Positions 21,524 to 45,378 of a stretch of DNA of 64,000 nucleotides are shown one piece after another. The translations under genes were made by a program, and so were the position numbers. This DNA comes from Rhynchonema sp. JSB1_4 (lineage: Eukaryota > Nematoda > Chromadorea > Monhysterida > Xyalidae), in the NCBI GenBank assembly GCA_030248065.1, contig JASAMV010000278.1, positions 62,001-126,000 on the forward strand, in the 5' to 3' direction. The notes below the pieces were generated by a model. That model was not told the DNA's origin and made no database searches. It saw nothing but the letters and a program-made list of their open reading frames with translations. How positions within the stretch are numbered: position 1 is the stretch's first letter; each line of letters begins with the position of its first letter.

Positions 21524-21618
21524 CTGAAACATCACGGTGCTGGTGTTCGTTACATGTACATGATGACCAAATCAGAAATCCAGAAATAATCCTGATTTTT
21601 AGGTTTAGACGCTCTTAA

Positions 21619-23971: not shown

Positions 23972-24903
23972 AGATTATTGCACATTTGATAGCATCAAAC
24001 GATGTAGCTTCGACGTAGCTATCGACTGATGTATAACATGTCCATACTATCTCTTACTATGGACAAGAAACGGTCGAAATTCCGAAATCGCACACGGTGA
24101 CGTGACGGTTCATTCCAGAATCGTCAAAAAAGCAATTTTTTAACCTCTGCCCTTAAGCGTAAGTATTTATTGGGGCTTGTTATATATCATTCGAAAGCTA
24201 ATCCCGAGATACATTGTTTGGTGCTATCACATTTACAATAGCTGTTAGCAATAAGCATTTATAGCTGAATATCATATTCAGGTTAGTATGGCTGCCCCGA
24301 GAGATCTGTAGACCTTGGGGTCTTTGGACCTTGATAGGTTGTTAAACAAGACGTTTCTCTCATTTTTTTGTTTCGAATCCGATACAATCTGTGGCCTTTA
24401 TGTGTCACAATTCTGGCGATGAATGTAACCACCTAATTTAGCGGCAATTTAATGGATTTTTAGGCCTGTCACGGAGCTAGCCACGAGTTAAAAAATTTAA
24501 AAACCTTATTTTCTGGTACTTTCAACGATGCTCTATTTCACCACTGCATTGTTATTTCCGCAGCTCTAAGCGTGGCCTCAAAATTTAGGGTGTTCTTGTT
24601 ATTCTTCAAAACTTGTGTTCTCGAAAAATATGGCCGATTTTTGGAACGTTTCGCACCCTCACCGTGTGAAGCAATGCTTTGAGCGATTGAAGTTGTGATG
24701 GTAAGCTATTCAGAAGCTGTTGTAATCCTATCCACGTGTTACTTGACCTTCAACTCATTTGGGGTTTCTGCACCGGTCGTTCCAATTTGTGCAAAAATTC
24801 ACTTTTTTCTGCAACGAAAAGTCGCTCTACCAAGAGATAGCGAATCTCCAAGGAGCTTAAAATTTGTGCGTGACATAGGCTGTCGGAATGCTTTCCAACG
24901 GTA
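23972..24903. mobile_element. Foldback element B, right half, truncated
   Basis: A direct repeat of the right part of the complete copy (from GATTATTGCACATTTG, compare 22999), offset by about 970-984 bp. It is cut at 24903, where dispersed repeat A begins, in the middle of the arm. With the left-half copy this gives the order left half, full, right half, as expected from unequal exchange or template switching between tandem copies. Confidence 0.7.
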
Positions 24904-25470
24904 TCGGAGCTAGCATGGTAATGCTAAGCGACATATGGTTCATTCCCTATAGTGCGCTTTCTGAAAATTTTGATCGTGCGCTATTTCAACAATACTCAAC
25001 CGAATGAGCTCAAACTTGCACACAATGTATATACCGTGCCCCAAAATGGCCACACAAAATTTCATCCCGCTGCGTGCCCACACGCGCAATCGCGGGCAAG
25101 ATACAGTTGTCATTTTTGTAAAAACGTTCTTCTCCTTTTTTTTTTTCCACAAAAAACTAGTCAGGGCCCAGACGTTACTGAACACCAGAAATGTTAATAT
25201 CGCATATAGGGTTTTCGCACACGAGAAACACGATGGTGCTATCGCCGACTTCGTAACTCCACGACTGAGACCGGTTCCAGACCATGACCACGACTTTTTG
25301 TATGTAAAGTGTGCTTCCCGAAGTAAAATTTCGCCGAAAAGTTGGGTTACCAGAACTATTAAAGTTGTTTATGTGGTTTTCGTACTCGAGAAACACGGTG
25401 GTGCTATCGCCGAGTTCGTAACTTTTAGTATGAACGGTTCCAGACCATGACTTTTTGTACAGAATGTGTG
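24904..25470 (-). repeat. Dispersed repeat A, copy 2 (inverted relative to copy 1)
   Basis: Reverse complement of 10790-11330, running from GGAGCTAGCATGGTAATGC through CATTCCCTATAGTGCGC to two copies of CTATCGCCGA(C/G)TTCGTAAC. The copies differ by small indels and substitutions, including a T-rich tract near 25130. Confidence 0.7.
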
Positions 25471-25659
25471 GTTCTAAAGCCAAAATCAGCGGTTATATGT
25501 GTTTTTAATTTTTGTTACGTCAAAAATATATTAATTCCAATTCGTTAAATGTTTTTCAGCTCAAAAAGAGCCATAATGGACGCTCAGACACACACAATAA
25601 TGCATTAGTGCACGCTACGTAGTTGCCTGATTCATAAAGCGCACAATGTATTAAACACA

Positions 25660-25740
25660 ACACACAGCCAGCCAGCCGGCACACACACACACACAGGCAG
25701 GCGGCAGCCAGCACACACACACACAGGCAGCAAGCACAAC
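25660..25740. repeat. CA/GCAGC simple repeat tract
   Basis: Three short (CA)n runs separated by CAGCCAGCCGGC and GGCAGGCGGCAGCC words. The minus-strand open frames across it translate to Cys/Val repeats and are not genes. Confidence 0.8.
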
Positions 25741-25802
25741 AGGCAATACAGCAATGCACGCGTAGTTACATATGTAGTAAAGCTTGTGAAGGAGATTGGC
25801 GA

Positions 25803-25872
25803 AGCGATGTCCGAGCGGTATAACGCGCAGCACTGAAGATGAAAGGCCGCGGGTTCAAACATTCACGCGCGC
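25803..25872 (+). pseudogene. tRNA-like sequence (tRNA relic or SINE head)
   Basis: Contains an A-box-like segment (TGTCCGAGCGGTATAACGC), an anticodon-arm-like CTGAAGATG (as around the GAA anticodon of tRNA-Phe) and a B-box-like GGTTCAAAC, in the correct order and spacing. The acceptor stem does not pair well, so it is unlikely to be a functional tRNA. It may be the polymerase III head of a SINE, but no SINE tail was identified. Confidence 0.4.
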
Positions 25873-26758
25873 AGCCAACTTTGTTTTATTTTTACAAACT
25901 TTTAATGAATTCTGGATAACATTTTTCAGTTTTTTCGTGTTTTTATTTGAGATTAATTATTAAGCACAGGTGCGGTTCGCAGTTTATGCGCTGTGATGTC
26001 ATTCATGATAAAATACGCACAAGGTATCAACTTCCTAATTAAAATTGCTGTTGCTCTCTAATATTCGAAGCATTTCCGCATTTTATAATTTGACTTTTGT
26101 CGGAAGATAGTAATTTTTACGTGACATTGAATCCGAGATCAGATGCGACGGCCGCCAACAAAGCAATCTTGGAGTGACTTACGGTGAGGGTGTTTGAGAC
26201 TTATTTCATAGCTGAAGCTGGGGGAAGGGGGAAGGGCAATTTTATTGCACAGCTTTTGGCACTAAAACAACAAGTACATGCCATTATACGCCAATAATCG
26301 GTGCGTTACAAATGATTGTGCGGTGGTGATTAAACGCATACGTACCGGGGTAAATTACATAACTTAACAAGACATGAAAGGTGTCCCTCAAGAGCGCACA
26401 CACGCGCGTGGAGGGGGCGCACTGCATCAGTTCGCATTCTGCTTGCAATTGAGGGCTTTTCTTCTTTCCACAACCACTGTGCTCACTGTACGCAAACGAA
26501 CAATAGAGGAAACACAATGTCTCATTTTTTTTTGAAAATACCAATATGTGAGCATCGCAAGAGGTGCGTGAGGCCCATTTTTGGGCTGAAAACACAAACG
26601 TGCCTCCATTGTTAGATAATTTATGGTTCTCTTCAGGTCGAAAAAACATTTCTCTTTCTACCCACATTTTTCTGTTTTTAACATCCTGGATCTGATATGC
26701 AGGTTTCTGATTTCTTTTTGTGTCAAAATAAGCGGAATTTTTAATTCATGTGCTTCAG

Positions 26759-27494
26759 ATGATTAGATCTGGATTCGCAAAGGTGTTGCTTGCAGCCGTT
26801 GTCATCCTCACTGGTCGTCACAGCGCAAGCTCTGCAACTCGGCTGGATCCTGACGACCCCAACCAACCTCCTGATGTTCAAGCCCGATTTCAAGATGAAA
26901 ATCACCCGCCGACCACATCAACACTTCGACGCCCCCGTCGCGGTATATTCAAACGAATCCATCAAATGCGCAATGCCCTTCGGTCAGTCCGTCGACGGTA
27001 CTATCGTCCATTCCGTCGTTGTGCCGTCAAGTACTGTAGGCAGCGAGGGTTGTGGTCTGCAGAGGGACGCACCAAAGGCAGTATTGAGTTCGAGCGTCGA
27101 TACCAAGGCCAACCTCTGGACACTTTGTTGTTGTGCACCTATCACAAGTCCATCAATCCAATGTGTCCCCCCAATCTGCCCAATCAATTGGTGGAGTCCG
27201 TGACGTGCTACTTCTGTGGTGGAAATGGCAGAACAAAGAGCTTGAACTGCCACCTGTCCTGTCCAGAACACCGCGATGAATACATGTGGACTCCGTGTGA
27301 AGCGTGGGACAAATGTGCAACTTTCCGTTGGGCATGGAGTCGGCGAATGAAGCAAAAGCCAAGCTCGCCGCGATTCACATGCACCGGCTGCGTGCTGTAT
27401 CTGGAGAAAATGTGCACAACACCAGCAACGCCTTTGGATCAGGCAGTCGTGTGGGGCAAAGCAGTGTTGGATCGATGCAAGCGAGCTATGACAG
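26759..27494 (+). CDS. Helitron gene exon 1: N-terminal Cys/His-rich region
   Basis: About 245 codons. The N-terminus (MIRSGFAKVLLAAVVILTG) is hydrophobic and signal-peptide-like, odd for a nuclear transposase. It is followed by an Arg-rich segment, then Cys/His clusters (CAVKYC; LLLCTYHKSINPMC; CYFCGG; CHLSCPEH; CTGC) that look like treble zinc-binding knuckles. It ends with a strong donor (ACAG/gtaggt) in phase 1, matching the acceptor at 28329. It could be a separate gene whose donor happens to match, but the phase match and downstream continuity favour one transcript. No family recognised. Confidence 0.5.
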
Positions 27495-30400
27495 GTAGGT
27501 ACATCACTGTAACTTTGAATCCAGATCAATTTTGAGGTGTTTTGGTTTCTATGTATACATGAGGAAGATGTATGGGATCTCAGTGTCATATTCAGAAAGG
27601 TTGAAATGTTGTGAATAAACATTGAGAATCACACTGGATGGCGAGTATTTGAAAGCAGGTCCAGGGGCGTAGCTAGGTCTGAATTTAGGGGGGTACCTGG
27701 ACGAAAAGTCGTTTTCATCCAGTGCTTGTTTAAAACTCGGCGCCTATCAAACCATGCATCAGTCAAATCAGCAGACAGTAGACAGCAGTCAATTTTGACA
27801 TTTTTGTTCCCGGATAAACACCAAAAGCCAGTGAAAATGCGTGGGTTAATTTTGCGCGCGCAGCGCGCAATTTTTTGGCATTTGTAGTGTTTGAGATCCA
27901 AAATCTTGCAATTTTGGGGCCACCGTGCCTGTTCAAATTCGGTACCGTACCGATTAAATCCCATATGGGTCAAAGCAGTGGAAGCGCGCACAGCGCGCGA
28001 TAATTTTGACTATTTTTGTTCCCAAAACCACTAGAAGCCGGCAAAAATGCGTGTTTTTGACGCGCGAAGAACGCGATTTTTTTTATTTTTGAACTGTTTT
28101 AGAGTGAAATCTTGCGATTTAAGGGGTCCTTTTTCCCTTCTTGTGACTTCTCAGAGGGGGTACGTACCCCCTAAACGGCTGAGGGGATACCTGTACCCCA
28201 GGTACCCGTCTCCTACACCACTGAGCACGGCGCAATATACCAACATTACATACTGCGCTCAGTACATTATGTATTCCAAAATTATTATAAATATGCCTCA
28301 AACAGTATTTTTAATATTTTCATTTCAGCAATGGCACGCGGTGTTGGACTGTTGGCAAAAAATGATAACAACGTGTCGCAACCGCAACATGGTCAATCCT
28401 CAGCATCTACCGACGATGCCCAAGACACAGCACAGCCGCCGGATACCAGTGCAACGACAACGCCGACTGCAGATGGTCAGAATCAAGATTCGAATACAGA
28501 TGTCAGCAGAAGTCAATCCCAACCACCCGGTTTGTTGCGAATCATTTCTGCGAATCTTACTCAATTGTAGTCCAACTCTCGAATTTCGAGCGAGAGATTG
28601 CATTGGCTTGCAAGATCAAGGTCGACACCGGTTTCAGGGCAGAGGTTCGGAGCAAACGAAAAAACCAATTTTGTAACGTACGTGCAGTATTCAATTGCAA
28701 TAAGAACTGTACGTGAGCAAGCTATTATCGGTCAATGATGCGCGGGTCGCACAAAAGTTTTACATACATTTTTTAGCCATTGAACGAAAAGACACTCGGG
28801 TGCAATGTGCATGGTTCGCCTGTAGGAACAAAGCTGATGCTAAGGAGAAAAACTCACTGGCAATGCAGTCGGCTGTCATCAGATTGAAAAGGACCTGTGC
28901 CAACAAAGATCGATCCGATTGTTTCTTGTGCTCCGCGCACCTGACCAAAGTGGAACGTGGCCATGAAGTGAGTGCTATGCATGAGCGGCAACACCGCGTA
29001 CATTTCGACCCAAAACTGCATCCGGTATACTGTATAGTGCAATTGTTTGCATTTTTGAGCAAGTCTATCGACCAACATTTACATTATGTAGCGGTTTGAC
29101 TTTGATTATCGACGAAGACGCTTTGCGTCCATTTTTGAAAGAACTGCAGTATGGCATTCTAAAAATTAATTGAGGCTTTAGTGTATACTTTTCAGCCACT
29201 TTCTCATGCAGCGACAGGGCTTGTCATCAGCACTAACTGTATTGGTTGTGAAGCTCCAACGCATCTGTCACGTCGACTCTGCCTTTCGAATACTGATCAC
29301 AGTCACAAAATTGAAGACCGAGACCAGCTTATTGTGCTTCCATGTGATTCAATCACGTGGTCGTTCCAGCCGTACTACACTCCTGCTATTGAATCCAATC
29401 ATCCAATCGCGTTCTTCTGTGGGACCTGCGCTGGCATCAAGAAAGCGGAAATCAGGCGACTTAAGGACAGAGATAGGTATTCGCAACCTCAGCGCCAAAC
29501 CACTTTGAGGCGCAGAGGCGTTGAGTCCTATTACGATGAACCATTACCGAAAATACGACGAATTCGTGCTGCCTATCACGCACACAAATCACCAACACTG
29601 CGAAGAAGCTGTGAAAGCGCATTGCTAGCGTACCACTCAGACCCGGAACTACGTGAACGACAGAACATCGCCAAGAAGGAGAAGTATGCCGCACATCCAT
29701 CCCCTATTCTGAGAAAAATGAAAATCCGGTATTCATTGTTGCCTTCGCCTAAAAAGCACAAGCAAGCTGAACATCGTCGTACGGCCAGAAAACTAACACT
29801 TGAACCACCCACAGCCCCAGCTCCCTCACTCACGCTGCACAAGCGATTGATGACGCGTGCGGAGGAAGCAGTCTTAGTGTTGAATCAGAGAAACGCTGTC
29901 ACAAGGAATCGGTCAACCGTGCCACAAGGTACTGTCGATGGGTGACCAGAAACCATGTTTGCTTGGACCTCATGTGCGCACTGGCGCCATGACATGCATG
30001 GGCTTTTTACAGAAACATGTTACAGACCACAGTGGATGTTTACCACCACCCAATTGGATTCAGAATAGTTTTAGTGGGCAGCCAACCGACAAATATGCCA
30101 GGTTGAAACATAACACACATCGGTGTTAATGGCACCGTAGTTGAAGGACTTTTGTGATAATTGGAATCTGGTTCTTTCCAGGTACCGGTGCATCCAGCGG
30201 TCGATACGTAAGGCCGGACGTTGTCAGCACCAAAGAGTACCGACGTGGGACCCGCCAACGTGCATTACATCAGGCTGTGGAGTTGATGGCCAGCCGGCGA
30301 AACCCGCCATCAGCACAGACGGTAAATGAGAGAGGCTTCACAAGACACGGAAACATCAGGCTGTCTTGCATACGCACCATAGCCATGCCGTGCAGGTATA

Positions 30401-33400
30401 GTCAGTATCCCAACAAGACCAGGCACATGATACCTACATACATACGTAGCGGTGTAGCTGATGGTTCACGGCGACTATAACACGCATACATAGGCCTCCT
30501 TGCTAAATCATGGGTCAACCAGCGCAAGTGGTGGCTTGATCTGGCCAGTAATATAGCTGTATAACAGATACTACATACATATATGTAGTTGGCACAGTGT
30601 ATATTGACTGATGAACACCGCGACGTATTTTCAGCTGTGTGCTCGCAATTCAAAACGCAAAGCTGTTAATCTACTGAGAGAAAAGGCCACTATCAGGGCA
30701 CTAGTTGACATCGGCTCTGCTTCTGAGGAAGCTGTGTCGAACAGGAAGCGAGGCTACACAAACAGGCTTTACGGGTACGTCTGTTTGCTGTGAAATAACG
30801 ATGGGTCGGTTTTTTCATTGTTTTGCATTTGGCTACTCTACCCACCCACAGTCAGTGGTGTCGTTGGATGGGGGAAGGGCTACCCATTAGTATCCGATAT
30901 CCGGTATTTCACCCAGAGTTTCTTGGGATTTCGCAAAACGCTGCGTTAGACTTGTGCGTTGAGTGGGTGGCAATCACGGGACCGTTGCAGCTAATACACG
31001 CATAATGGGCTCTGCCGATTAGGCAACGCGTTTGAAAAGCAAACGTTTGTTGGCTTCTTGGCTGATGTTTCATAGTAAATGCGTGCGAATCTGTCCTGCT
31101 GAGGTAATGGTTCTACAATACATTAAAATTATCATATCTGCAGCAACTACGAGATCGCGAAAAAACAGCTGCAGCAGCAAGACGATCAGAGTTCCGTCGC
31201 AGTCATTCGAACTTTGGAGAAAATTTACGGTGGTGATCAGGGTCATTTGTCATCATCCAAAGATCCCTTTTCACTGAAATCCATCCCTGAATATCAACTG
31301 CCGACAGAGGACGAAGTCGACTTGAGTGATGCGTCGTCAGTAGATAAACTTTCCGTCTTGCACACAACATGCGTTTCGCCACCGCCAATCCTGTCTCAAG
31401 GGCAAACCCAGGTCACTGACCCACCTCAAGCCTCAACACCAGACCCACGTGATTCCGATGCAGATTCAGACAATGAACCAGACAATCACATGGAAAAGGA
31501 GAAAGTTCCTTTGATTCCGTGCAGCTCAGAAACTTGCGTGCTGCCTACGAATTGGGCTGGTCGGTTGAATCTCGTGTTGTCCCGGCTGAGCAGCGAGAAA
31601 GGAAACGAACAAATTTGCAAAGTTCTTGCCGAAGCGGAGTACTGCTCAAAATGCACACCATTATATTGCCCACTGGGCATCAACTGCGAGAACATTCTTA
31701 CGATGATACTGGTCGTGTCTCCACACTTTCGGTAAGATTCACTCGGTGATTTTCTAAATTTTATGTCATAAAAAATAACCACGATCATGCTTTTGCTGTG
31801 GTTTCGCTCGCAACAGGTAGGCACAGAGGCTAAATTTTTATGGGTGCGATCCTGTAATTGCGGGTGCTAGGATAGTCTCCATCCTGATCTGAAGTGAGCT
31901 TTTTGTATTGCAGGAGAATGCGAACTATCCGGCGACAGTGGTATCAAGCCAGAGAATGTCTCATTTGGAAATCCAGATTTTGGTTGGCTGTGAAAGTTGG
32001 AAGCGTCAAACAGTTGAATTCAGTGCTGGCGAATTTACCGAGGGTTAATTACACTTATTTCACGATCTCACATTCAATATCTTATTTTTATTGTAGCATA
32101 ATGGTAATTGAAACTATAGGACTTTTAACCATCAGCAGCTGGACCACAAAAATGATCATTTGTTGATTTCGGTGCGGATGGGCATGATAACAAGACAGAA
32201 GAAACAGCTAAATCACAGCTTGCGTCATGCACACAAGCAAAGGACTGCAACGAGAGCTGTAAAAATTATTGGAATCAGAGTTATATATAATCACTCAATA
32301 TCTCTCACCAGTCACCAGTTTTGTCACTTTAGAACTTGAGTCTTGAATTTTTGAAACGCGGTTGCGAAACCTATTTATGATATGATCAACATACAGATGC
32401 GTATACGTGTATGTATGTGTTCAAGTCCGGAGAATGCCGACCTGTACCACAAATATGATCAAAATTCCGAGCTTTTGGCCATTCGAGTCCTGCCCCGAAC
32501 TCCAATGCCGATCACCTATGCATTTCGATCTGACCCCGAACTGCTGACCAGTTTGAAGAGCAGTCCGATATTTAAACGCATCATAATGCAGGGAGTGAAG
32601 CAATCGAAGAAGAAGGATGTCGAAATTGTTGAACGTGACGATGTTCAGGAAGCTGAACTCCGAGATATCCACAAGTCATCGTTCGAATCGTTTCAAACAG
32701 CAATCTACGACCAACCAACCGAAAAATGTGACGTTTGCCACGAATGGAGAAAGCGAACGGATTTGTGGCAGCTGAGTCGCATCAAGGTCACAGATGCTGA
32801 CGCAAGTGAGCTGTTTGTGTATTGCTTGTAATTTAAAGATTTTTTTAAAGCTGACTGTCAGGATGACGGTGGTCGCTATCCCCCTATCGGCATCGGGTCA
32901 GGTTAGATCAGGTTGGGTGGTCGGCTGCGTGCACTATGGTAAATAGGTACATAAACTTCGTAATGCACGGTGGAGTTGAGCATTTTTTGAGAATGGGTGG
33001 ACGTAAATACATACGTAGTACATATAAACACATGGTTGCGCCACTAATCGAACTCGAACTCAATGCCAGCGGCAGCGCAGTTTATGACGGCCATTGTGTT
33101 CAGGTTCGTTTGACGACAGCAGCAGTGACAGTGACACTCAACCAGCAAGGACGGTGTCAATACGCAGACGACGACTACAGCCCATCGACGCACCAATTCC
33201 ACAGCATCGCCGGGCCCGGGTACCGGCTCCAATTCGAAACATCCCATTCGAGCACTGGAACTCATTGATCACCAACTGCAACTTGGATCCAAACGGGTTC
33301 AGTGCTTGCGAACTCCATTGCGAACCGGACATTCGGACGCAGCTCAGACAAGGACTGCCTCCACTGTACTCGGCGTGGAACAGCATGCAAGTGGAACCTG

Positions 33401-36400
33401 TCCCCAAAGAACTCTCAGCCCTTAACAGAGTTGAGAAAATGCTGATTTCAACTGCTCAATCGTTCATGACCATTATCAAACTTCAGCCAATGGCGAAATT
33501 GCCGGACAAGCAAAAAATGCCTGCTCTGAAAGGTTAGTGCATCTCTGGTCCTTTCTATGGGCGTACAAGTTTCATCTTTTCTGATTTTGATTACATCAAG
33601 TGCAAACTTATTCATTGAACACAGACCGGTATCAAACTTTGTGATCGCTTAAGCCAGGGTCAAAAACAATGCTGGGAAACAGTGGAGAGGAAGCACCTGA
33701 CGAAATAATGTTCACCATGGTTTATTTAAGATATGCACGTTCTCAAGCTACATTACCGCTAATGCTATGTATACGTACATTGACCTGATCGCCTGAGGCC
33801 AGAGCGGCGGTCCGCGCGCATGTCCGGGAACAACTTCGTTGAGAACGATTAGTGATTTCTATTTTAAGGTTGTTTGCAGGTCTTGCGATCAATTTGCCGA
33901 TTCCGGTCGATTCAACACTGGCTAAGGTGAATACAGCACTACCGGGTGATGCAGCAAAGCGTGCCACAATCGTCGTTCAAGGTCTGCCTCCAACGACAAA
34001 CAAGACAACCATTTTCCGGGCGCTTGTAGACATGAAGAAACTCTATGCCGCACTGGCATGTCTGAAGAAGAAACACAACAATTTTCTTTACAAAGACATT
34101 CAACAATCAGCCGGAGACCCGACGCACATGATTGACATTGACACCAGCAAACCGGATCCGATGCTGACGCAGACCTTGCCTGACAATATGCAAGAGTACA
34201 GCGTGCAGAATATGTGGATCGACAAGCCAAATCAGAAGGACACTGAATTGTTCCAGTTAGTTTGATACCTTGGCTTGGTGCTTACTTTTAGCTCATGGCG
34301 ATGGCGATATCAAACTTGGTGTCCGGTATGTCAGGGTTCGGCAGTATATACGTACGGTTTGTGGATCTCAAATGCTGTGATATATGTTGAACGGGCCATC
34401 CGACTACCAGCTTTGATGAACTGTACCTGGGGTCTGTGATAACGGAGTTTTAGCGTGTGGGAATTTCAGGCAAAAACGGGTCACGGAGAAGCCAATGTTC
34501 AACACCAAACACATGGACGCGCGATGTTTTCCTGATTTGCACCCAAGCGGGCAGTTTGGGATGGACCATGAGCGAATTCGACCGGTGCCAATCACACAGT
34601 ACATCAGACACAAGATGCACCACACTGAACCGCAGTTCCGACGAAACATTCCGTATCTATTCTTCCTTCAATCGCTGAAGGATAATAGATCTATCGACCA
34701 AGGTACGGGCAGATAGAGGAAGCACTTTTTACATTTGGATGGTATAGGCAATGTAGATTCTCAAGTATTCAGGGAATAGCCAAGTACCAAACCAAGATAT
34801 GCCTACATTACTATGTTTTTAATACATTTTAATCACGCAGGTTTGTACGGTACTCTTCACGGAACACGGGACCGAAAGAAGTCAAAAGAGGATGTGATCA
34901 AAGCAATCGAGCGCAAAGACGACGAAATAGAAGGACAACTGAACACTGTATTTCAAAAAATAATTGGGTCCCCTGCATACTGGGCTCAACGCAATTCGGA
35001 CTTGAAGGCCCTTGATCGTGAATTCGGACCGTGCACGTTCTTTTTGACACTGAGCTGTGCAGAATACGCCTGGGGTGACATGCTGTCAGCTCTCAGAGCC
35101 CGGAACCCCGACATTCCCAACATCGATCAAATCCCACTTCGCCAGCTCTGTAACATGGATCCCGTCACAGTCACTGAACAGTTCGATCGGCGATGGAACG
35201 CAATTCTGAAGGTCCTGACAAATCCAAACGGTGGTCCACTTGGAGTCGTTGAGCATCATGTCTACAGGCTGGAGTATCAGGGGAGGTTTGTCGAGTTGAT
35301 TGCTCTTACGAGAAGGTGACCAACAGGATGATTGAACTTTGTGAGCGCACAAGCCATTCACACCACTTAGAGTTTTATTTTATGGGTATTACTTTTTGTT
35401 CTGAAATCGGTTAAATCAAATGCATGCATCACTTTTGCAATTATTGGGCACTGTGTTCAGTGGGCTGAAATTGAGGCAATGCGCATAAGTTTATTTAAGT
35501 TGCGAACCCCAAATGTACAGAAAAGCAGCTGCATAGCGTGTAGTCGGGTCCGGAATACCACACTATACTGTACATATGCATAATGTGTCCAAACCCACCC
35601 AAGGACCATCATAGGTGGTGGTGCTTCAATGTAATCTGAATGGAATGTGCTAATTCCCAGTCAAGTGTATCATATGGTTTGATGCTGCAATGTAGTCCGA
35701 ATGGAATGTGCTGATATTCGTTTTGTGGTACCGCACTCAGACATGTGTAACAACATTGCAACCAAGAGCATTCTCTTCAGAGGTGCGCTTCACGTCCACG
35801 CCAAGTTTTGGATCAAAGACGCTCCGATCATCGGCGAATCCACCGAAGCTAAAGTCAAAGCGTTCATCAAACGATACATCTCATGCGCTCTGCCAGAACC
35901 TGCCACCAACCCTGTGTTGAGTAAGCTGGTCAAAACGTACCAGGTACACAAGTGTTCGAAAACCTGCATGAAAACCGGTGGAACGAAACGCTGGGTCAAG
36001 TTCTGCCGTTTCGGTACGTTATTTTTACGTTATCTTCATTGGCACATTACATTGTTGCTGACAGAGTGGCATCATTCAGGTTATCCTCGTGATGCATCCG
36101 AGTCACTACAACTCAATCCAGTCGACACTGTGCTGAAGAACAGACAACACGGCTCCCGAGACAAAATCTACAAGCTGCCACGAACCGACAAGGAGACCAG
36201 GGTGAACGACTACAACCCAGCGCTTCTTCTCCTGTGGCAGGCCAACATGGACTTGCAGTTCGTTGGAGAACACAGTGAAATCTTGAACACCTATATAAGC
36301 GGGTAAGTGACATGTAAGTGTACCAAGCCAGCAGGGTATTACGGAAAGAGTACCTAATCGAGGCAGGCGCGGTGGCGCATGTCCCATATGGTTTAACAAA

Positions 36401-39400
36401 TACAGTATGTTGGGCCAAGGTATAATTAAACGCGCTTTTACCACGACAACTACAGTCCTACCAAAAGGACAACTTTTGGACTAGAATACTTCGTTCAAAG
36501 TTTTTTTGTGATGTGGGTGAGTTAACGAAAACACTATCACGACAATAGGGCACACTGGTTGACCGCTGTATACCTATATGTTTACAATCGTCGTTCCTTT
36601 TTATTCGAGTCAAAGGAAGCCATGTGAACGTGTAATCCAACACCTAGCTGAGGTCGAACTTCCACGACTCCTCTTGAAAATGCAAAGAAAGAGAAATTCC
36701 ACGTGACATGCACGCAGCCAATGTTATTAGAAGTCTGGAGCATTGCTTCATGTGCGGACGCTTTACGTGGCGTGTGACGTCTGATTTCTCTTTCTTTGCA
36801 TCTTCAAGGTGACTCGCATGAAATTGCGACCTTGGCCAGAAGCAACTGGGTCGCACGTAGAGCGGGTATTTGGACCAATAAAATAACTAAAGACTATACA
36901 TTATGTTTATGCAGCATGTAAAGTACATACCTATGTATTTGAGGTTTTTGCTATTGAGTTCATACATATGTATATGTACGTACATATGTAGTTAACTTAT
37001 ATAGCGCCATTTTGCGTTGCATCATAACATGCTATAATTTGGTGCAGTCCATGTGTACATAGGTTGATAGGCATGTGTAAGCATGAGAACAGTCAACCAG
37101 ACCGACCACCAACCACCTTAAGCATTTCTAAGAATAAGCACATTTATTCTTTCCAGATACATTTCGAAAGCAGAGAAGCAGGACACCGAGGCAATTTGGG
37201 ACACGGTGGATGGCAGCAAGTCGATACAATCCAGACTGAAGACTGCGGCCTTGCGGTTGCTCAAAGCACGTGAGGTCGGAGTTGTCGAGGTAGCCACCCG
37301 GCTGTTGGGCGTTCATCTCTATGGCTTCTCCGACAGTGTTCGCTGGTTATCTACTGCCATGCCTGAACTCAGACGCAGAGCTCTGAAGGATTGGAAGCAA
37401 ATTCAGAAAGAGCGAAATTCTGATTTGTCGGTTTTCAAGGACAATTTACAGGTGACTAAAATTATATTTGGAATTTGAAAAGTTTCAGGCTAAATTTAAT
37501 GGCTGTCGAAGTTTTGGAAAGCACCAAACAACTTTCGTTAACATAATCAGGCAACTGACTGACTGACTGACCACCGCTGTTTTGTCACCCGCTGTTTTGC
37601 GTCCCGCCATATTGTCTGTTCCCAGTTAAAGCCCATTTTCTTACTTGTTGATCTTCGCCAGTGTAGATCTCATGGACTGGGAAGCTTCAAACTTTCAAAC
37701 TCTTAACTTTTCGAGGACGTCTACTTTCCCAATCGACCTGATTCCATGGAGCGTGTGTGTCTGTGGGACGTTGCCCGCAAGTATACGTTCAACACCAAGC
37801 CGTGTCCCGATCTGTCATGCACTTGTTGTCTCAGACTCAAGTCAGGGACCGGATGTTTCAAGAAACGACGCGAGGACAAGCCACAAGTCATAAACACGCA
37901 GCACTACAGTGTTGGAGACGAAAAGAAGGAACAGTACTACCATCAACTGCTCATGCTGTTCTGCCCATACCGCAATGAGATCGACGATTTGAAAGGTATG
38001 TATAAAGTAACACTACGCCAACACGAGCCCGATTTCGGAGGTGCTAGATTGGTGAAACATTCATACGTGGCTGCTGATGTGGGAAATTTTACACGTTCGT
38101 TGTGGAATAGAACGTGGTGCATGAGGATTTCTCTTTCTTTTGGTTTTGCCAGTGCACCAACTCCGAAATCGGGCGTTGGCGTAGTTTGCCTTTATGTACT
38201 AAAACAAGGTTAATAAAGCACCGAGATCAGCACAGCGGACAAGCCAAAAAAACAAAAAAAAAAAAAATCAAGGTGACTTCTCAAGGTGACTTTGCTCAAT
38301 TGCCCAGCACCAAAAGAAAGTTTGCATAATTTTGCCAGTTATTCCAGGTCAGCATGCTTCGTATGAAGAAGCGTTCTTCGACAAATTGGAGCAAGGCGAC
38401 GTTGATCCCGGCTATAAAAAGTTCACCGATGCCGTGAAGAGGCTGGAAGCAATGAAAAACAAGAAACGCAAGTTGGAGAACAAGGTGATCACCAGCCAGA
38501 CTGGGAGCCAAGCAGAAGACGTCACTGATATCCCAGCAGCGGTAGAAGATCCAACCGCTGCGAAAAAGAAAACCGTCACGAAAGACGAATTAGATGAAAT
38601 GGTCGGCAAACTGAGCGATGAACAGCTTCAGGCTTTCAATCTCGTCACGTCACACATCAAACAACAGAACTCTGCCAAGCAGCCGAAACCGAAACCAATT
38701 CGACTGTTTATATCAGGTGAGTGGCTGACGGTTTATCTTGTGCTTCTAGCGCGAAAATGCAAACGGAAAGAAACGGCTGAAGCCTGAATTTCTTAGTTGA
38801 AGGATTGGAAAGAATGTTTGTGCCCTTGATCAGATGAAGACAAGGCCTTGACGAATTCAACAATGATGCAGCATTTGGCTGGTATGCACTTCGCTGGCAT
38901 GGCGGGTCGGCTTGATCGGGTATGGTCGGGGTTGAAAATGGGTTGGGTCAACTTGCGATTTTGTGATTACTGTGATTTCCGCCATCGTAAAAGATTCTCA
39001 CAGCTTACTGGAGAACAACTTTTAGGCTGGGGAAAACCACTGAAAAAATGAAATGGCAAGATGTGACCGAACTCATGTTCAGCCAAGACCACACCCGACC
39101 AATCCCAACCTGACCGTGCCAGCAAAGCGCATACGGGCCTGTATGCCCCTGGTCTGAAGAACGACTTTGTTTTGCAGCTAGTGCAAAGTTTCATTCCATT
39201 TTGCTTCCAGGTGTGGCCGGGACAGGGAAGTCGTTTCTGATTGACTGTATTCGATCCTGGTGTGCACTCATGTTCCCCGATCAACATGCCGCTGCTACCG
39301 TTGCTGCACCAACCGGTCTCGCAGCGTTCAATGTCGGGGGAGTTACATTGCACCGGCTTCTCAACCTTCCGGTGCAACGAGGCGTCTCAAAGGTCGCCAA

Positions 39401-42400
39401 GTACTACAACTTGTCGGAGGATCTGATCAAAACCAGACGGTCGGAACTCAACCACACGAAGGTCTTCATTGTTGGTTAGTTTTCCATGAAGGCAGCAACG
39501 GAAAATTTGTTGATTGTACATCAGAAATTAACAACAGAAACTTGTTATTTATAATTGCTATTGAAATAAATGTTGTTGTGTGTCTTTGAGAGACGAACAG
39601 AACAACAGGTGCTGTTCGTCTCTCAAAGACACACAACAACATGAACTTCACACGGCACTTCCCATCCTAGCAAGGCATGGCAGAGAAAATTTTCCCAGAA
39701 GATACGTACCCACACTAAGGCTGCATTTTTAGATGAGATAAGCATGGTGAGTAACGTCACACTGTCGATGGTCAACATGCGCCTACGATCAATCTTTCCC
39801 ACTGACCAATCCTTCGGTGGTCGAAATCTCGTCGTCTTCGGTGATCTTCTTCAATTGCCCCCTGTTGGCTCCAAATCGGACAGCAGCAAAGGTCAAGGGG
39901 TGTGTGGACACGTGTTTCAGCCGATGACGCGAAAGCAAGCAGCCAGACACTATGGCAGCGCAGTGGCCGGCAGGGAGAACTTATGGTCGGATTTCGAGTA
40001 CTTGGAGTTGACTAAAAACCAACGGCAGTCGAAGGACCTTGAATTCGCCCAAATGCTGAATCGGTTCCGCATCGGCGAACTTCTACAAGCTGATGTCGAG
40101 CAACTGAAGTCTCGGTTGATCGAGTCACAAGGCCAACCCGGCGACAATCGATTGGACGATGTAGCATCTGTCTTTCTCGACCTGTCAAAGTCCGGCGCAC
40201 CGCCCCTGTGTCTGTTTGCGCTCAACAAAGACGCAGGTGCATTCAACGAGCACATGTTGAAACGAGCGAACATTGATGTCAAGCTGTTTAGTGCCGCTGA
40301 CATCAACACCCGAACCAAGAAAAGCCACAAGGTTTGTTTTTACAGCGATTTTAAAAAGTGCACATATTGCTTGCTCGTTTTTTCCAATACATATGTTCGC
40401 CAAACTATGTATGTGCTTCAGATAACCAAAAACGCAACGAAGAACGCTGAGTCTCGTGCCGGGCTTGAAACGTCACTGAAAATTGGTATCGGCTGTCGTG
40501 TCATGCTGCGAAGAAATATGAATGTTGATATTGGCCTCGTCAATGGTGGGTGCTTGCACTTGTCATGCGCTTTGCATGCATAGGTATAGGTCGCACAATG
40601 ATCACATAAGAATTCATCATATAAATCCTGATTTTCACGTTCAGTCAGTCTTAAACCGGGCCCACCGCTATTGTTTTTTGGGTTTTCGACCTCGTTTTTT
40701 CTGTTTGTATCGTTAATTGGCACTGGGATCAAGAACATTAACCTTGAAAAACTTTACCAAAATGACGATTACTGATCGAAATCGATCCACCAACATGGAC
40801 GTTCGGGAACGAACCAGCCCAATATTGACGCACAGTCTGTGCATGGAACTCAGGACCCGCGAAGCAAAATTCAAAATCACTGACGGTGGTATAGGCGCCG
40901 GGTTACGGTAGCTTGACAAAACATTTGTCTTTTGCAAAACAGCTAATGTTTTATCGGGCTACCGTGACCTGCTGCCTATATCACGCCCCAGTGATTTTGA
41001 ATTTCTATTGTAATTACTGATTATCATGTGCGGATGTGCGTCAATATCGGACAGATTTGTTCCCGATAGGCCGTGTTTGCGGATTGATTTCGGTGGGTAA
41101 TAGCCACTTTGGTGAAGTTCGGTAAAATTAATGTTCTTGATCTCGATGCCAACTAACGATGTGAGCAAAAAAACGTGGTCGAAAATCCAAAAAAACCATA
41201 GCGGCGGGGCCGCTTTAAGCACTGTGCCATTCGTGATTCTCACAAAACGTTTTCATCTGAAAATAATTCAGCAGAGCACCCACGTTGTTGCGGGTCTGAA
41301 ACATTTCACTGACTGCAGTCTTTGTATGTGATCGCGCAACGCAACGACATTGCCCCGTCACTATCCTGCTTCACGATTCAGGAACAAAATTTGACCAATT
41401 CTTATAAAGTAATTGTGCGACCAATATATACTGTATATACGGCATATGCTGTATAGTAACACCACCCGAAATCGGGCTCGTGTTGGCGTAGTTTGCCTTT
41501 ACCCAGATAATTTATACATGTGCAAGAAAGTAAGTGGTATGCATACATACAGTACCAGCTGCAACCCTGAATGAAGCCTGGTTGTACGCGAGCATGCCTC
41601 TGACGCCGGCGGGTACAGTGCAGAACCGCCTAGCACAGAGGCGTGCATGCGGACGCACTCGTGCTGCATGCTTAAGGGCAGACATCATCCAGTTGCAGCT
41701 GGTACTGTAGCGACACAAGGTACACCGCAACGAATACTGTCAAACCCATGCACACGCTCAACGGCAAGTGTGCATTGGGCCGCAGCTGCAAGTGTATTTA
41801 CTTTGTGCCCTTTAACATAAAGCTAGAAAACTAAATTTGACCAGCGTAATAAGTGCCCGAAGTGGGGAACACCTTCACATTTGATAAATTTCAATGCCGC
41901 AACTCTATTAAAGCTATACTATACATGGACGGACGATCTAAAGGTACAGTGCCATGACCCTGCTTTTTGGTCCAAGTGGCCCCAGCACCACGTTGTGTAA
42001 TTGCACTTTATGTTTGAAGTGGAAATCTTTCGCAGCGAACAAATAATTGCAGGAGCGATGGGCACTGTGCACGGATTCGAATGCAGTGCAGTCAACCCAA
42101 AGCACATCGAGTTCACGCTGGTCAAATTCGATAAGCTACCCGGCACACATCGAATTCCAAGACTGAACGCTGACTTCGAGCTGTCTCAGGGACTGTACAT
42201 TACAAGAAACCAGTTCCCACTCATCCTCGCTTATGGGTTGTCCATTCACAAGTCTCAAGGTTTGTGCACGTTATTTGCCATCACCAACGGTTGGTGTTGA
42301 TTGTCCAAAACTCAAAAGTGTCACGGTCACAGATTAGGTATAAATCAAGTGTATACAATACATGCTAAACTGTTCGAGGTCCGCATAACTCGTGCATGTA

Positions 42401-44603
42401 CACTGCGTACGCAGGCTACAGCAAAATGTGCTTGCTCGGTTACTGTCAAAAAAGGCCTATGCTATGTATATCTACATTGCGTGCCAGGTCCCAGTCGTAT
42501 ACTATTCACAGGAGTACGAGCATCTCAAATATGGTACGATTTGCAGGTCTATCTCTCGACCATGTGCTCGTTGATGCAGGATCATCGGTATTTGAGCCGG
42601 CTATGGTCTATGTAGCTCTATCGCGTGTGCGCACGCTCGATGGGCTACATTTGATCAACTTCAAGGCCTCGAAGATCTATTGCTCAAAGGAGGTCGTTCT
42701 CGAATACAACAAGTTGCGTGTCAAGGCACTGAACACTGCTCACTTGCCTGCCTATCCGGAAAAAGTGGCCCGGGTTAGTGCTGGGTTTCAATTAATTAAG
42801 TTATGTGTTATTGCACTTGTACATCGGATAGAGCAGCGGGGCCAAAACAGCGGGTGAAAAAAACTTTTACTTTTCCTGGGCACTACGCTTATGTGGGTGG
42901 GTATTCTACATAGTCTCTCGCACACAAACGTGGCGGTCTTATACGCAACCAATTGTGGTTACCGTTTGTACCGCCACGAAGCAAACCCACCCATTTGCTA
43001 TTACATTGCTTGATTTCAGTACATCCCACCAGAGGAACTGCAGCAACAACGGCAAGCTCCAGCGCAAATTAATCTGCAGTTGCAACAGTCAAAACGAACA
43101 GTACCACCGATCCCCAAGCCGAAAGGTGCTCCCAAAACCAAGCGCCCACGCGTGGCTGGCTCTCAACCAGTGTCGGGAACCACTGCGAGATCGCAACAGA
43201 GACCGCAACGGCCAGTTCCACCATTGCTACGACTGCGTAATCCGACGAATTTCTGCTACTCAAATTCCGTGGTGCAATGTCTATTGAACCTGGGTGGCAG
43301 TTTTTGGGACGCGGTCAGTTTTTGTTGTTCTTCTGCATTGATGTTCTTGTTGAATAGTATCAATGCTAACCTCAAGTATCCATCCTGTTTAACACTGTCG
43401 GCACTTTGTGCACTACACCGCACCGTAGATAGGTTAATCGGTCCGATGTGCCTGGAAGTTCTATATTTTTATTGACAGCAATTTTTAAATTTCTTGCGAT
43501 CCTGAATTTCAAAATATTGCGGGAATACAATTTTTATGAGCATGGAAGGATAACAGACCTTAGCATTTATGTTTCACAGCTTCAGATGACTCAGTACCAA
43601 ACACTAGCCGGTGATTCCGCGGTTGTGACCGAACTTCTAGCGTTGAAGAATGCTGAACTGACTGGAGCGCTGGTTCCACGTGACACAGTGAAGTTGAGAA
43701 AAGCGATCGACGCGATGAACATTGTTGTCGGTTAGGGCAACTATTGTTACCATTATAGCTCAAGCTCTAGCTCAACAGTGCACACGTCTATTTTGGGTGC
43801 TTTCGTTTCAGCACGATACGACAACGACCAGCAACAGGACGTGAACGAGTTTGCCAATGTCCTCATTCAATGTCTTCCGGCTGAGATACGATCGAAGTTT
43901 GCATTTCGAGTGGGTTTGCAAAATGTATTTATGAGCGCTTATGTTTAGTGCAAGTGATATTGCCGAATTCAGTGATTGAGCAAGGAGATGAGCTCAACAG
44001 TAATGTACACCAACAGACAGCATTGTTTTTCAGGTGGAATATGACCGTCAATGTTCGTTCTGCGATTGGAGCAGTAATCTTTCGGAGCCGTGTTTTCAAT
44101 GGCAACGGGCCCTGATTGAAACATCGACAAGCCATTACGTTGATTTTGATGCCATGATCAAAGATCACATGAGAAGCAACATCCAGTGTGGGCGTGATGG
44201 CCCAATTGGCAGGCATTGTCGCGCAACACATGATCGTGCTGCATCGGAGGTGACCAATCACAGCGGCAGTCCCGAATACGTGGTTCTCGTGCTCAATCTG
44301 TTCAACTGGGTGGATGATCGGTGGACTCCGAAGATGCATCCAATGTGGTGGAATCTGAATCCCATTGACGTCACTCTGCCGGGGTTGACTGGGAAATTCA
44401 AGGTGGCTGGCATTGTTGAACACTCAGGCTCGGAGCCCAAGAGAGGGCATTACTGGTGCTGGAGAAACATTGGCGACTCGAATAAAGAGTCATGTGAGTT
44501 TGCCAAGGTCGAGGACTGGAAACCCATCGATACAATAAAGCCAATAACGCGATCGGATCATGCGCCATCCGGGGCCTACCTGTTCATTCTACAGAAAAAT
44601 TAA
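26759..44603 (+). CDS. Helitron RepHel transposase with C-terminal USP domain, 27 exons
   Basis: Rolling-circle transposase: HUH/Y2 Rep nuclease plus Pif1-family helicase, with an added deubiquitinase-like domain. Exons: 26759-27494, 28329-28529, 28777-28967, 29196-29928, 30182-30321, 30635-30774, 31144-31731, 31914-32043, 32397-32805, 33104-33532, 33880-34255, 34470-34702, 34841-35285, 35781-36013, 36080-36302, 37157-37451, 37716-37995, 38348-38716, 39211-39474, 39733-40331, 40422-40545, 42053-42259, 42547-42773, 43020-43313, 43580-43730, 43812-43909, 44034-44603. Every junction is GT-AG and phase-consistent; the sum is 8,685 nt (2,894 codons plus stop) with no stop or frameshift. Key residues of nuclease, helicase and protease are present. 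Start: the ATG directly follows an AG acceptor, so it could be trans-spliced or lie behind an untranslated exon. The first nine exons are less certain than the rest. Transposon termini (5' TC, 3' hairpin and CTRR) were not found. Confidence 0.85.
28777..29928 (+). CDS. Helitron gene exons 3-4: zinc-finger-like and basic region
   Basis: Exon 3 (28777-28967) has CAWFAC, then C-x8-CFLCSAH with a second His, a C2HC/C2H2-like arrangement. Exon 4 (29196-29928) begins with TNCIGC and SRRLC clusters and FFCGTCAGIKK. It then becomes strongly basic, with repeating R/K-E-x-Y-HSDPELRERQ-type segments that suggest helical DNA- or RNA-binding repeats. Such repeated basic blocks are usual in front of the conserved core of animal and fungal Helitron transposases. 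The phase at each junction agrees. Confidence 0.6.
33104..34255 (+). CDS. Helitron gene exons 10-11: DUF6570-like region
   Basis: Exon 10 is an acidic Ser-rich linker followed by VPKELSALNRVEKMLISTAQ and a MPALKG end. This is the arrangement (PxELSxLxRVEExLIS...ALKG) of the DUF6570 segment upstream of the Helitron-like N domain. Exon 11 continues with GLAINLPIPVDSTLAKV and IFRALVDMKKLYAALACLKK, the DUF6570 C-terminal part (GHVINFP; VRRxKVxxALxWLK). The preceding exon 9 carries CDVCHEWRKRTDL, the usual CxxC just before it. These identify the gene as Helitron independently of the helicase. Confidence 0.75.
34470..35285 (+). CDS. Helitron gene exons 12-13: Helitron-like N domain
   Basis: Exon 12 has ARCFPDLHPSGQFGM followed by PITQYIRHKMHHTEPQFRRN, matching the ...FPxLFPxGxGxF...RHxxxxxDxRF pattern before the Rep. 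Exon 13 has SPAYWAQRNSDLKAL, FGPCTFFLTLSCAEYAWGDM and DPVTVTEQFDRRWNAILK, the classic signature of the domain (GxxxYW...LGxPTFFxTLSxADxxWP; VTxxFxxR). It ends LEYQG/R, one residue before the HUH strand in the next exon. Confidence 0.92.
35781..37451 (+). CDS. Helitron gene exons 14-16: HUH/Y2 Rep nuclease core
   Basis: Exon 14 (35781-36013) opens RGALHVHAKFWIKDAP: the HVH metal-binding pair that gives HUH nucleases their name, followed by the FIKRYISCALPEP and HKCSKTC segments usual in Helitrons. Exon 15 (36080-36302) has NDYNPALLLLWQANMDLQFV and ends TYISG. Exon 16 (37157-37451) starts YISKAEK. The two tyrosines of the Y-x3-Y catalytic pair are therefore both present but encoded on opposite sides of an 854-bp intron (36303-37156). 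All key residues are intact. Confidence 0.92.
36655..36850. repeat. Inverted-repeat MITE in Helitron intron
   Basis: GATGCAAAGAAAGAGAAAT-like arms (left about 36679-36697 with AATGCAAAGAAAGAGAAAT, right ATTTCTCTTTCTTTGCATC at 36782-36800) with further inverted similarity outside (CGAACTTCC/GGTCGCA-type edges). Non-coding. It lies between exons 15 and 16. Confidence 0.55.
38005..38215. repeat. MITE-like inverted repeat in Helitron intron
   Basis: ACACTACGCCAACACGAGC near 38011 and GGGCGTTGGCGTAGTTTGCC near 38173, each next to an oppositely oriented CCGATTTCGG word, form the ends. A single end with the same words is at 41465-41500 in another intron of the same gene. Non-coding. Confidence 0.55.
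38348..42773 (+). CDS. Helitron gene exons 18-23: Pif1-family helicase
   Basis: Superfamily 1B helicase that unwinds DNA during rolling-circle transposition. Exon 18 contains LSDEQLQAFNLVTSHI and RLFISG. Exon 19 contains Walker A GVAGTGKSFL, then AAPTGLAAFNVGGVTLHRLL. Exon 20 contains Walker B DEISMV, FGDLLQLPPVGS and ELTKNQRQ. Exon 21 has LVNG and exon 22 opens AMGTV, with IHKSQG at its end. Exon 23 has YVALSRVRTLDGLHL. Motif order and spacing are those of Pif1/Helitron helicases, and no motif is damaged. The intron between exons 21 and 22 (40546-42052) carries nested transposons. Confidence 0.92.
39570..39642. repeat. Perfect 31-bp inverted repeat (hairpin) in Helitron intron
   Basis: Arms 39570-39600 and 39612-39642 are exact reverse complements around an 11-base loop (AACAACAGGTG). 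It lies in the intron between the Walker A and Walker B exons, about 90 bp upstream of the acceptor at 39732. Perfect arms imply recent origin or maintenance. It could be a tiny MITE or a structured element. Confidence 0.85.
40587..41426. mobile_element. MITE with GGTCGCACAATGA ends plus nested foldback
   Basis: The ends TATAGGTCGCACAATGA (about 40585) and AATTGTGCGACCAATA (to 41426) are inverted. They are the same family as 11680-12153 and the fragment at 21555. A second foldback (about 40655-41215, with mirrored CCGCTATTGTTTTTTGG and CCAAAAAAACCATAGCGG words) is inserted in it. All lie in the Helitron gene intron between exons 21 and 22. No coding potential. Confidence 0.75.
41547..41712. 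repeat. Foldback repeat in Helitron intron
   Basis: ACAGTACCAGCTGCAAC near 41549 recurs inverted as GTTGCAGCTGGTACTGT near 41694-41710, with further mirrored words (GCATGCCTCTG and CAGAGGCGTGCATGC). About 160 bp, non-coding. Confidence 0.65.
43020..44603 (+). CDS. Helitron gene exons 24-27: C-terminal USP (peptidase C19) domain
   Basis: Ubiquitin-specific-protease-like cysteine protease fused behind the helicase through a Gln/Pro/Lys-rich linker (43020 to about 43230). The Cys box is NPTNFCYSNSVVQCLLNLGG (exon 24). The second box is DQQQDVNEFANVL (exon 26; compare the QQDAxEFL of USPs). Exon 27 opens with a CSFC zinc-ribbon-like pair and a later C-x8-C. It then has EYVVLVLNLFNW, the His box HSGSEPKRGHYWCW, and SDHAPSGAYLFIL near the end (Asp candidate, typical USP tail). 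Catalytic Cys and His are present, so activity is plausible. All three junctions are in phase with the helicase, and no stop separates the two. Confidence 0.85.
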
Positions 44604-44751
44604 AGTGATACTTTGGACGGCAGAACTTTCGGTTTTGATTGTGTACACTTAAATGTCATCGCGTTCACTGAGATAGATTAGATGCCACAGTTTACTTCGC
44701 GTACCATGTTCAATTTTCTTTGCACACTCGTATCTTTACTTACGCATGCTA

Positions 44752-44955
44752 TGCCATATTTTCCAGATATTTTATGATAAAAAATTAAATATCAATAATT
44801 ATTGTCTCCTGCCGGTTGCATCATATTTTAGACAAAAATTATTATTTGCCCAGCTATCACCAGCCATCGATTCGATACTGCAGTTGATTTCGAATCCACC
44901 ATCTCAATTAAACCTGGTAACCATAAACAACGAAACAATAATTAGTTTACAGTGA
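44752..44955 (+). CDS. Possible short exon downstream of the Helitron gene
   Basis: After a good acceptor (ATTTTCCAG at about 44766) an open frame of about 63 codons runs to a TGA at 44953-44955. It has a protein-like composition (contains LLFAQLSPAIDSILQLI and NETIISLQ) but no recognisable domain. It follows the Helitron stop by 150 bp, so it might be an alternative 3' exon of that gene, a piece of another plus-strand gene, or chance. Confidence 0.25.
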   Translation, partial: CHIFQIFYDKKLNINNYCLLPVASYFRQKLLFAQLSPAIDSILQLISNPPSQLNLVTINNETIISLQ

Positions 44956-44960
44956 GAAAC

Positions 44961-45378
44961 GTAAGCGAAAATAATATTTTGTGTGATGGGCAGCACTTTG
45001 ACGCTGGTCGAAGTTCGTGGCATCTGAAACATGTCAGATTATCTTTTACAAACGAGAAGCTCAACTGATCACGGCAAGAGCGGAGTGGATCCAAATTTTA
45101 TACCGATCTGATGCAGTGTGTATCTTCTAAACAAAATCATTGTTCCATGTAAAAATGTCGATGTTGCGACTCATCACTAAAAACCGCTGTGAATAAAAAA
45201 TGCGGACACAAAATTTCGGTCAGCGCGCACACGCACACTTACCTTGCATTTTGTTGGGTAAAAACCAACTGTACCTAGCGGGTGTTCAGTAGTCATGTTT
45301 GCGTGAAGCATCACTTTCGTTTGCCCGTTGCCGGTGAGCAAGAGATCACTATCGGCTGCATTCACAAACGGAAGGTAG
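44961..45378 (-). CDS. Two orphan exons of an extracellular domain
   Basis: Minus strand. Exon 45378-45243 follows an acceptor AAAACATCAG and ends at a strong donor (TGCAAG/gtaagt). It encodes 45 residues containing NGQTKVMLHANMTTEHPL, with an N-glycosylation sequon. Exon 45023-44961 (acceptor CATGTTTCAG, donor TTAC/gtttct) adds 21 residues ending SVKVLPITQNIIFAY. Phases agree (0). This resembles the end of an extracellular N-terminal domain leading to a first membrane helix, as in SLC10A3/P3-type carriers. It could therefore be the missing 5' part of the minus-strand SLC10 gene, with the Helitron gene inside the intervening intron. A ZP-type origin is an alternative. Neither neighbouring exon was found. 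Confidence 0.4.

Follow-up and report, generated by a model that had tools for sequence, protein, structure and literature searches.

The window, a stretch of 64,000 nucleotides from the nematode Rhynchonema sp. JSB1_4, contains on its plus strand (26759-44603) a predicted gene of 27 exons, which runs from a start codon at 26759 to a stop codon at 44601-44603 and encodes 2,884 residues with zero in-frame stops. It was assembled by a Viterbi splice model that scored splice sites and codon usage from the given start to the given stop, with GT-AG borders imposed, and its introns measure 51 to 1,507 nt. The initial model had 28 exons, of which a 48-nt exon (38834-38881) was removed, the flanking exons fusing directly through the Walker A motif. 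A preliminary description of this DNA had joined 27 GT-AG exons into about 2,894 codons without a stop; the exon number and the stop-free frame stand, whereas the length does not, so that at least one junction differs. The best exon chain scored 436.8, versus a mean of 37.3 and a maximum of 60.5 in 60 dinucleotide shuffles, and 30.0 for the reverse strand. This high score is not due to chance, but the codon table was trained on the gene itself, which favours its score, and the independent support therefore comes from homology.

The 5' part is the portion of the model of which we are least sure. Residues 1-1,064 gave zero Pfam matches, the start codon sits immediately after an AG, and similarity to a sibling family of the same genome (family B, see below) begins at residue 876, besides one weak match (residues 345-482, E=0.009). 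Exon 1 (26759-27494) carries the start codon, a Cys-rich N-terminal region and a first Cys/His unit, and its first 57 codons are partially copied on another contig, C1038. Exons 2 (28329-28475), 3 (28571-28708), 6 (30182-30321) and 7 (30635-30774) were placed by the splice model alone. Exon 4 (28777-28967), where the second Cys/His unit begins, also has the weak family B match, and exon 5 (29196-29928; splice model and comparison) continues this unit and adds a basic region. The two Cys/His-rich units (about residues 87-182 and 350-456, within exons 1-5, 26759-29928) resemble each other weakly (E 0.063), and are perhaps a duplicated zinc-binding domain without a Pfam name.

The main similarity to family B sets in with exon 8 (31144-31731; splice model and alignment) and extends over exon 9 (32426-32805), likewise placed by the model and the family B alignment. 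On the spliced pieces, Pfam then recognised DUF6570 (3e-15) in exons 10 (33104-33532) and 11 (33880-34255), and the Rep domain, Helitron_like_N (3.3e-19), which begins within exon 12 (34470-34702) and continues in exon 13 (34841-35315), whose open frame alone gave 4.3e-19. Exon 14 (35781-36013) holds the HxH motif of HUH Rep nucleases at 35791-35799 (H1573 and H1575, at 35791 and 35797), which was compared with APHIHMLLW of the homologue P0001. The two tyrosines of the YxxxY motif, Y1723 and Y1727, are encoded in exon 15 (36065-36302; Tyr at 36292) and exon 16 (37157-37451; Tyr at 37158), so that the motif, YISGYISKAE, matching YVTSYITKAE of P0001, arises only through splicing of the 854-nt intron 15. 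Both introns flanking exon 17 (37716-37995) match families B and C in column and phase, and exon 18 (38348-38716) was placed by the splice model and intron comparison.

The helicase was matched by PIF1 (1.4e-24) and Pif1_2B (2.7e-7), and matched Pif1 in the PDB at 2.9e-36. The Walker A lysine (39228) lies in exon 19 (39211-39474; Pfam and motif position), the Walker B aspartate is at 39474, and exon 20 (39733-40331; Pfam) covers Pif1 from Walker B onward. The 2B domain follows in exon 21 (40422-40545; Pfam). Exons 22 (42053-42259) and 23 (42547-42773), assigned by Pfam and the splice model, complete the helicase, and we take them to hold the motif V region and motif VI, respectively.

Behind the helicase, the C-terminus of the spliced protein matched UCH (PF00443, E=9.6e-14) over 231 positions of the profile (3-233 of 254). 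Exon 24 (43020-43313; Pfam, alignment and motif position) comprises a linker and the USP Cys box, with the oxyanion Asn N2588 at 43239 and C2593 at 43254. Exon 25 (43580-43730; Pfam) continues the domain, exon 26 (43812-43909; Pfam and alignment) bears the QDxxEF box, here QDVNEF, and exon 27 (44034-44603; Pfam, alignment and motif position) encodes the second half of the USP, with H2834 in GHY (44448), D2861 (44529) and the stop. In the unspliced open frames alone, Helitron_like_N, PIF1 and Pif1_2B were matched, and UCH stayed under its curated cut-off. The HVH, Y-x3-Y, Walker A and B, and USP Cys and His boxes listed in the preliminary description could all be located in the spliced model. 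Its reading of the locus, an intact Rep-Pif1 protein of Helitron type in which a C19/USP module follows the helicase, is thus borne out by the UCH match and the motifs; it had named a missing C19 match as grounds for refutation, and the match obtained excludes these.

In an alignment of 12 Helitron USP sequences, conservation reaches 90% or more in the catalytic Cys and His columns. Four residues after an invariant Trp, the third catalytic position is D, N or S across the rows, and D in the window. The remaining 11 sequences share just 16-23% identity with the window USP. A profile made from the 12 matches the solved structures of USP15, 46, 8, 12 and 21 (E 2.6e-27 to 6e-26), and the window USP sequence alone reached a best E of 0.045 against the PDB.

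Related genes in the same genome and in other organisms

Profile searches of the 204-Mb assembly located Helitron_like_N at six places on six contigs, PIF1 at seven places on four contigs, and DUF6570 in the window only. UCH was found at 75 places, the majority of which are presumably host USPs. In sibling family B, contig C1037 carries Rep, PIF1 and UCH in this order, and C3379, C4416 and C3518 share 96.8-98.0% identity with it across 4.2-4.5 kb. Family C comprises C1835, C917 and C1540, which are 91-98% identical in their main blocks. A more distant relative lies on C2629, where the analysed stretch stops before the expected USP start. The sibling gene models are intron-dense, with 48 predicted exons in C1037 and 27 each in C917 and C1540. 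In C1037 and C1540 a USP stands behind the helicase, with its Cys, His and Asp positions retained; the C917 gene model is without the Cys exon. Pfam matched UCH on the C1540 tail (1.7e-8), and gave zero UCH match on the first C1037 tail tried, which was without its Cys exon.

Of the 12 window introns in the Rep-helicase part, seven recur at the same column and phase in C1037, five in C917, five in C1540 and four in C2629. Rotation of the intron positions yielded 0.4-0.5 matches on average, and the observed counts were reached in 10-11 of 2,000 rotations. The families sharing these introns are only about 29% identical in protein. Several introns, being shared beyond the rotation expectation, are therefore old and belong to the lineage. 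The high intron number does not indicate domestication, since several of the introns also occur in multi-copy families of this genome.

The USP-Helitron exons of the sibling families show fewer amino-acid than silent changes. Between copies, each family being compared with a single reference and some of the contigs possibly being alleles, we counted 24 synonymous versus 5 nonsynonymous changes in the family B Rep-helicase exons (20-21 of 23 being missing in the partial copies), 27 versus 3 in the first 11 Rep-helicase exons of family C (2 of 11 missing in C1835), and 4 versus 1 in a set of five USP exons of family B that leaves out the Cys exon. The compared exons had zero stops and zero indels, and a second comparison counted 0 gap positions in exons, versus 19, 57 and 22 in non-exon sequence.

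The same combination was found in other organisms, with 12 database proteins joining UCH to Helitron or Pif1 domains. Among the best 120 of 6,243 matches of the homologue search, 6 carry PF00443, 62 carry PF02338 (OTU), 3 carry PF02902 (Ulp1) and 49 none of these. Searches with the USP region added P0121 (of 2 matches including the query) and P0122-P0126 (of 8 including the query). The top match, P0001, was predicted from a single 10.8-kb metagenome contig and has 2,176 aa with the domain order DUF6570-Rep-PIF1-UCH; P0002, P0121 and P0125 have this order too. Named sources of the fusion proteins include Nasonia vitripennis, Dysidea avara and Anthonomus grandis, and the Nasonia model (P0056) covers the second half of UCH only. 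For the weevil protein P0126, the predicted structure (mean pLDDT only 61, from 19 sequences) resembles Pif1, the Helraiser transposase 7lcc and USP18, USP46 and Ubp8. P0127 (Athalia rosae) and P0048 resemble USP-Helitron proteins, with UCH giving no match above the curated cut-off. In P0048, the match below the cut-off covers the first half of the profile only; separately, its N-terminal stretch, for which Pfam gave zero match, appears Ulp1-like by eye. In viral contigs, the 80 retained out of 403 relatives match the helicase part alone, at 26-32% identity, and were taken for Pif1/RecD-like helicases.

Judged from these sequences, the fusion of a USP with a Helitron protein is not peculiar to the window locus, and appears to belong to a broad group. 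It would be very improbable for the window model to have merged two adjoining genes, a Helitron Rep-helicase and, after it, an unrelated host USP. The USP does begin in a new exon, exon 24, as two genes would have it, but this exon has no Met ahead of the Cys box, and the same module order is seen within single predicted database proteins and in the two sibling families. The two-gene model was therefore set aside.

Could the USP be a catalytically weak or dead module that binds ubiquitin and is not a protease? The usual Cys-box consensus of USPs is GLxNxGNTC, from which the window box deviates, and P0113, a protein with tandem C-terminal USPs, has a first USP without catalytic Cys and His. Against a dead module stand the Cys, His and Asp positions, retained in the window and in families B and C, and we consider it unlikely. 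In both P0113 and P0123, which has tandem C-terminal USPs as well, the second USP retains GHY and the first reads GYEY (P0113) or GGQY (P0123) at the catalytic His, which suggests an inactive-active pair.

Copy number, ends and surroundings of the window gene

The window gene is the sole copy of its family found, save a partial 5' copy on C1038. Queried across the genome, its USP found nothing else above 29% identity. The partial copy (C1038:108802-109597) consists of the 5' flank and the first 57 codons (85% identical in nucleotides, 95% in amino acids), followed by other sequence; the locus has thus been partly duplicated. A search for further copies, as the preliminary description had proposed, met with multi-copy sibling families, and with nothing beyond this fragment for the window family itself. 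Copies sharing a 3' end, which it had suggested looking for, were not found: the 3' flank is unique in the genome, and no second copy marks the ends.

Helitrons are recognised by 5'-TC and 3'-CTRR ends, a 3' hairpin, and a target between A and T. In 4,997 bases around the 3' flank, CTRRT occurred 34 times versus 29.95 expected, and the sequence at 44604-45100 folded no better than its shuffles (z 0.78), so that CTRRT counting and 3' folding recognised no ends for the window copy. Comparison of the family B 3' ends with each other revealed no clear terminus.

Two introns harbour repeats, for each of which 40 candidate copies were scored. Intron 21 contains an outer MITE (40568-41428) with inverted arms and copies 79-92% identical, enclosing an inner repetitive MITE (about 40651-41219) with copies up to 96% identical. 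In intron 15 lies a MITE-like repeat of about 305 bp (36594-36906), its copies being 84-86% identical. The MITEs that had been described as old are therefore present in the introns, and their age holds in part, given the inner copies of intron 21.

A single copy and an intact frame beside intronic MITEs fit host domestication without showing it. By this account the gene would be an immobile Helitron retained by the host as a DNA-binding helicase-deubiquitinase, which we regard as possible but rather doubtful. It is favoured by the sole family copy, the USP query at or below 29% elsewhere and the unique 3' flank. If drift amounted to 0.02-0.04 per site, an assumption that takes half the divergence of the nearest intron 21 MITE copies and presumes that the MITEs inserted here, 7-14 stops would be expected, and the probability of finding none would be 8e-4 to 6e-7. 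However, an age read from the divergence of MITE copies can exceed that of the insertion at this place. Many domesticated transposase genes lose catalytic motifs, whereas all checked Rep, Pif1 and USP motifs are retained here, as a transposase requires. The partial 5' copy on C1038 and the several copies in the sibling families likewise speak against domestication.

Alternatively, the gene may be an ordinary transposon that has gone silent, the last member of its family, intact because it fell silent recently, and without a host role. This is a serious possibility, if not quite a probable one. The sibling families, with their 91-98% identical copies, show that multiplication of intron-dense USP-Helitrons has taken place in this genome, and the window motifs are intact. 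On the other hand, neither a second copy nor a shared 3' flank was found, and the nearest copies of the intronic repeats are 86-92% identical, pointing to some age.

A repeat of about 1.37 kb (24902-26275) directly precedes the gene and is present in at least 40 other places (40 of 1,833 candidates scored), mostly at 94-97% identity. It was considered as a Helitron with read-through capture and rejected, as inspection by eye found no CTRR end, and its 3' end showed no arms resembling a hairpin nearby. Downstream, on the minus strand, 46116-46931 and adjoining stretches hold frames that resemble the fusion glycoprotein of a virus (Pfam Monjiviricetes_fusion, 4.2e-16) and seem to represent an endogenous viral gene next to the Helitron. 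Exons of a predicted multi-pass membrane protein lie at 18872-21551, also on the minus strand, with zero Pfam match; by eye, we take them to resemble an SLC10-type transporter.

Predicted deubiquitinases beside the Helitron helicase

We think it probable that the locus is an intact, intron-dense gene for a Helitron Rep-Pif1 transposase whose C-terminus is a deubiquitinase of the USP class, that it is one of a broad group of Helitrons bearing a USP, and that the USP acts on ubiquitin of the transposase or of host proteins. Nicking and joining by Rep and strand movement by Pif1 are known chemistry of the Helitron family; in the window protein, HUH nicking, the use of two tyrosines and translocation by Pif1 are indicated by motifs only. 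With its HUH motif and tyrosine pair, Rep would cut a single strand and join it, and Pif1 would peel off this strand and carry it along. The USP, held at the transposition site through the polypeptide that it shares with Rep-Pif1, could then strip ubiquitin off the transposase itself, or off host proteins such as PCNA, RPA or histones on the single-stranded intermediate, and thereby hold off degradation or a response to damage. That the USP is catalytically active, what it acts on and what is gained by it are our inference: by analogy with other transposons, its likeliest role is to free the transposase, or host factors present at the intermediate, of ubiquitin. The VTD domains of zebrafish Helitrons are reported to cleave ubiquitin chains, with a suggested protection of transposition proteins from degradation (PMC9741609), and Ulp1 and OTU proteases are suggested to act in transposition (PMC2836005, PMC4067079). 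USPL1, a member of the USP class, is reported to prefer SUMO, and a modifier other than ubiquitin is conceivable for the window USP too. Since the same fusion occurs in related elements of this genome and in other organisms, Helitrons may repeatedly need to have ubiquitin removed.

Several known systems are comparable. In OTU Helitrons, a predicted deubiquitinase is joined to Rep-Pif1 and, in P0004, P0053 and P0098, the OTU stands behind the helicase; their protease is an OTU, whereas that of the window is a USP (C19). Helentrons with a VTD, a herpesviral tegument-like domain, also encode a deubiquitinase, but as described in PMC9741609 it is of the VTD class and accompanied by a C-terminal AP endonuclease; neither was matched in the window protein, the AP endonuclease giving zero Pfam match across four spliced pieces. 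Trichomonas XP_001314237.1 (transposase_11 and Peptidase C19; PMC2836005) also links a C19 domain to a DNA transposase, but one of the transposase_11 family, unlike the rolling-circle Rep-helicase of the window. Ulp1/C48 transposons (Mutator-like and Ginger; PMC2836005 and PMC13317346) and the Ulp1 Helitrons P0092, P0099 and P0100 likewise join a protease for ubiquitin-like proteins to a transposase, in P0092 behind the helicase, but the family is C48 and not C19. Helraiser (PDB 7lcc) is a Rep-Pif1 transposase that matches the window sequence over the helicase (E 8.6e-25); to our knowledge it is without a USP module.

In the passages of PMC9741609 and PMC4067079, among others, a USP is absent from the Helitron accessory modules named (RPA, OTU, AP endonuclease, SET, VTD), and searches of open-licence papers, PMC9741609, PMC2836005, PMC6431247, PMC4067079 and PMC13317346 among them, listed no USP-class Helitron. 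To this extent the C19 module behind the helicase, unfamiliar in the preliminary description, has no Helitron counterpart in these papers, but the fusion is not restricted to this locus, as it recurs in the 12 database proteins and the sibling families. The USP would be a further ubiquitin-removing fold in Helitrons, and it lies in the slot that OTU or Ulp1 occupies elsewhere. A slot shared by enzymes of unrelated classes predicts a common target or step, and with the added fold the purpose of Helitron deubiquitinases becomes a testable question. Judging by the intron-dense copies with conserved introns, a large transposase gene of many exons may be able to multiply as DNA. For annotators, such proteins should not be labelled as host PIF1 or host USP genes.

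A wider scheme is also conceivable, although we hold it only tentatively and think it rather unlikely: Helitrons would need a ubiquitin- or SUMO-cleaving enzyme beside the helicase, the slot being repeatedly refilled by unrelated folds (USP, OTU, Ulp1), with USP old or perhaps oldest, and the window gene, which the host may have retained, would be the last of a USP lineage dense in introns. Of 131 sequences aligned to the window Rep-helicase part, 117 cover at least 70%, 13 less, and one gave no match. A quick tree was built from 47 chosen sequences (15 USP, 17 OTU, 3 Ulp1 and 12 without), 44 from the 117 plus P0113, P0123 and P0126, re-added by their helicase part; it is unrooted and has long branches (P0126), and the USP labels of P0048 and P0127 lack a Pfam match above the cut-off. 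As the root is not fixed, gain and loss of the USP look alike on it. The USP and OTU labels each required 6 changes, of which starred branches force at least 5, and the Ulp1 label required 1. The label for no protease required 9, a clustering no better than in 44 of 500 shuffles. A single USP capture common to all USP-Helitrons was rejected, since a clade of the 15 USP sequences gave a p-AU of 3.2e-103 and the label changes 6 times. Within this tree, the OTU protein P0053 groups with the USP proteins P0113 and P0123.
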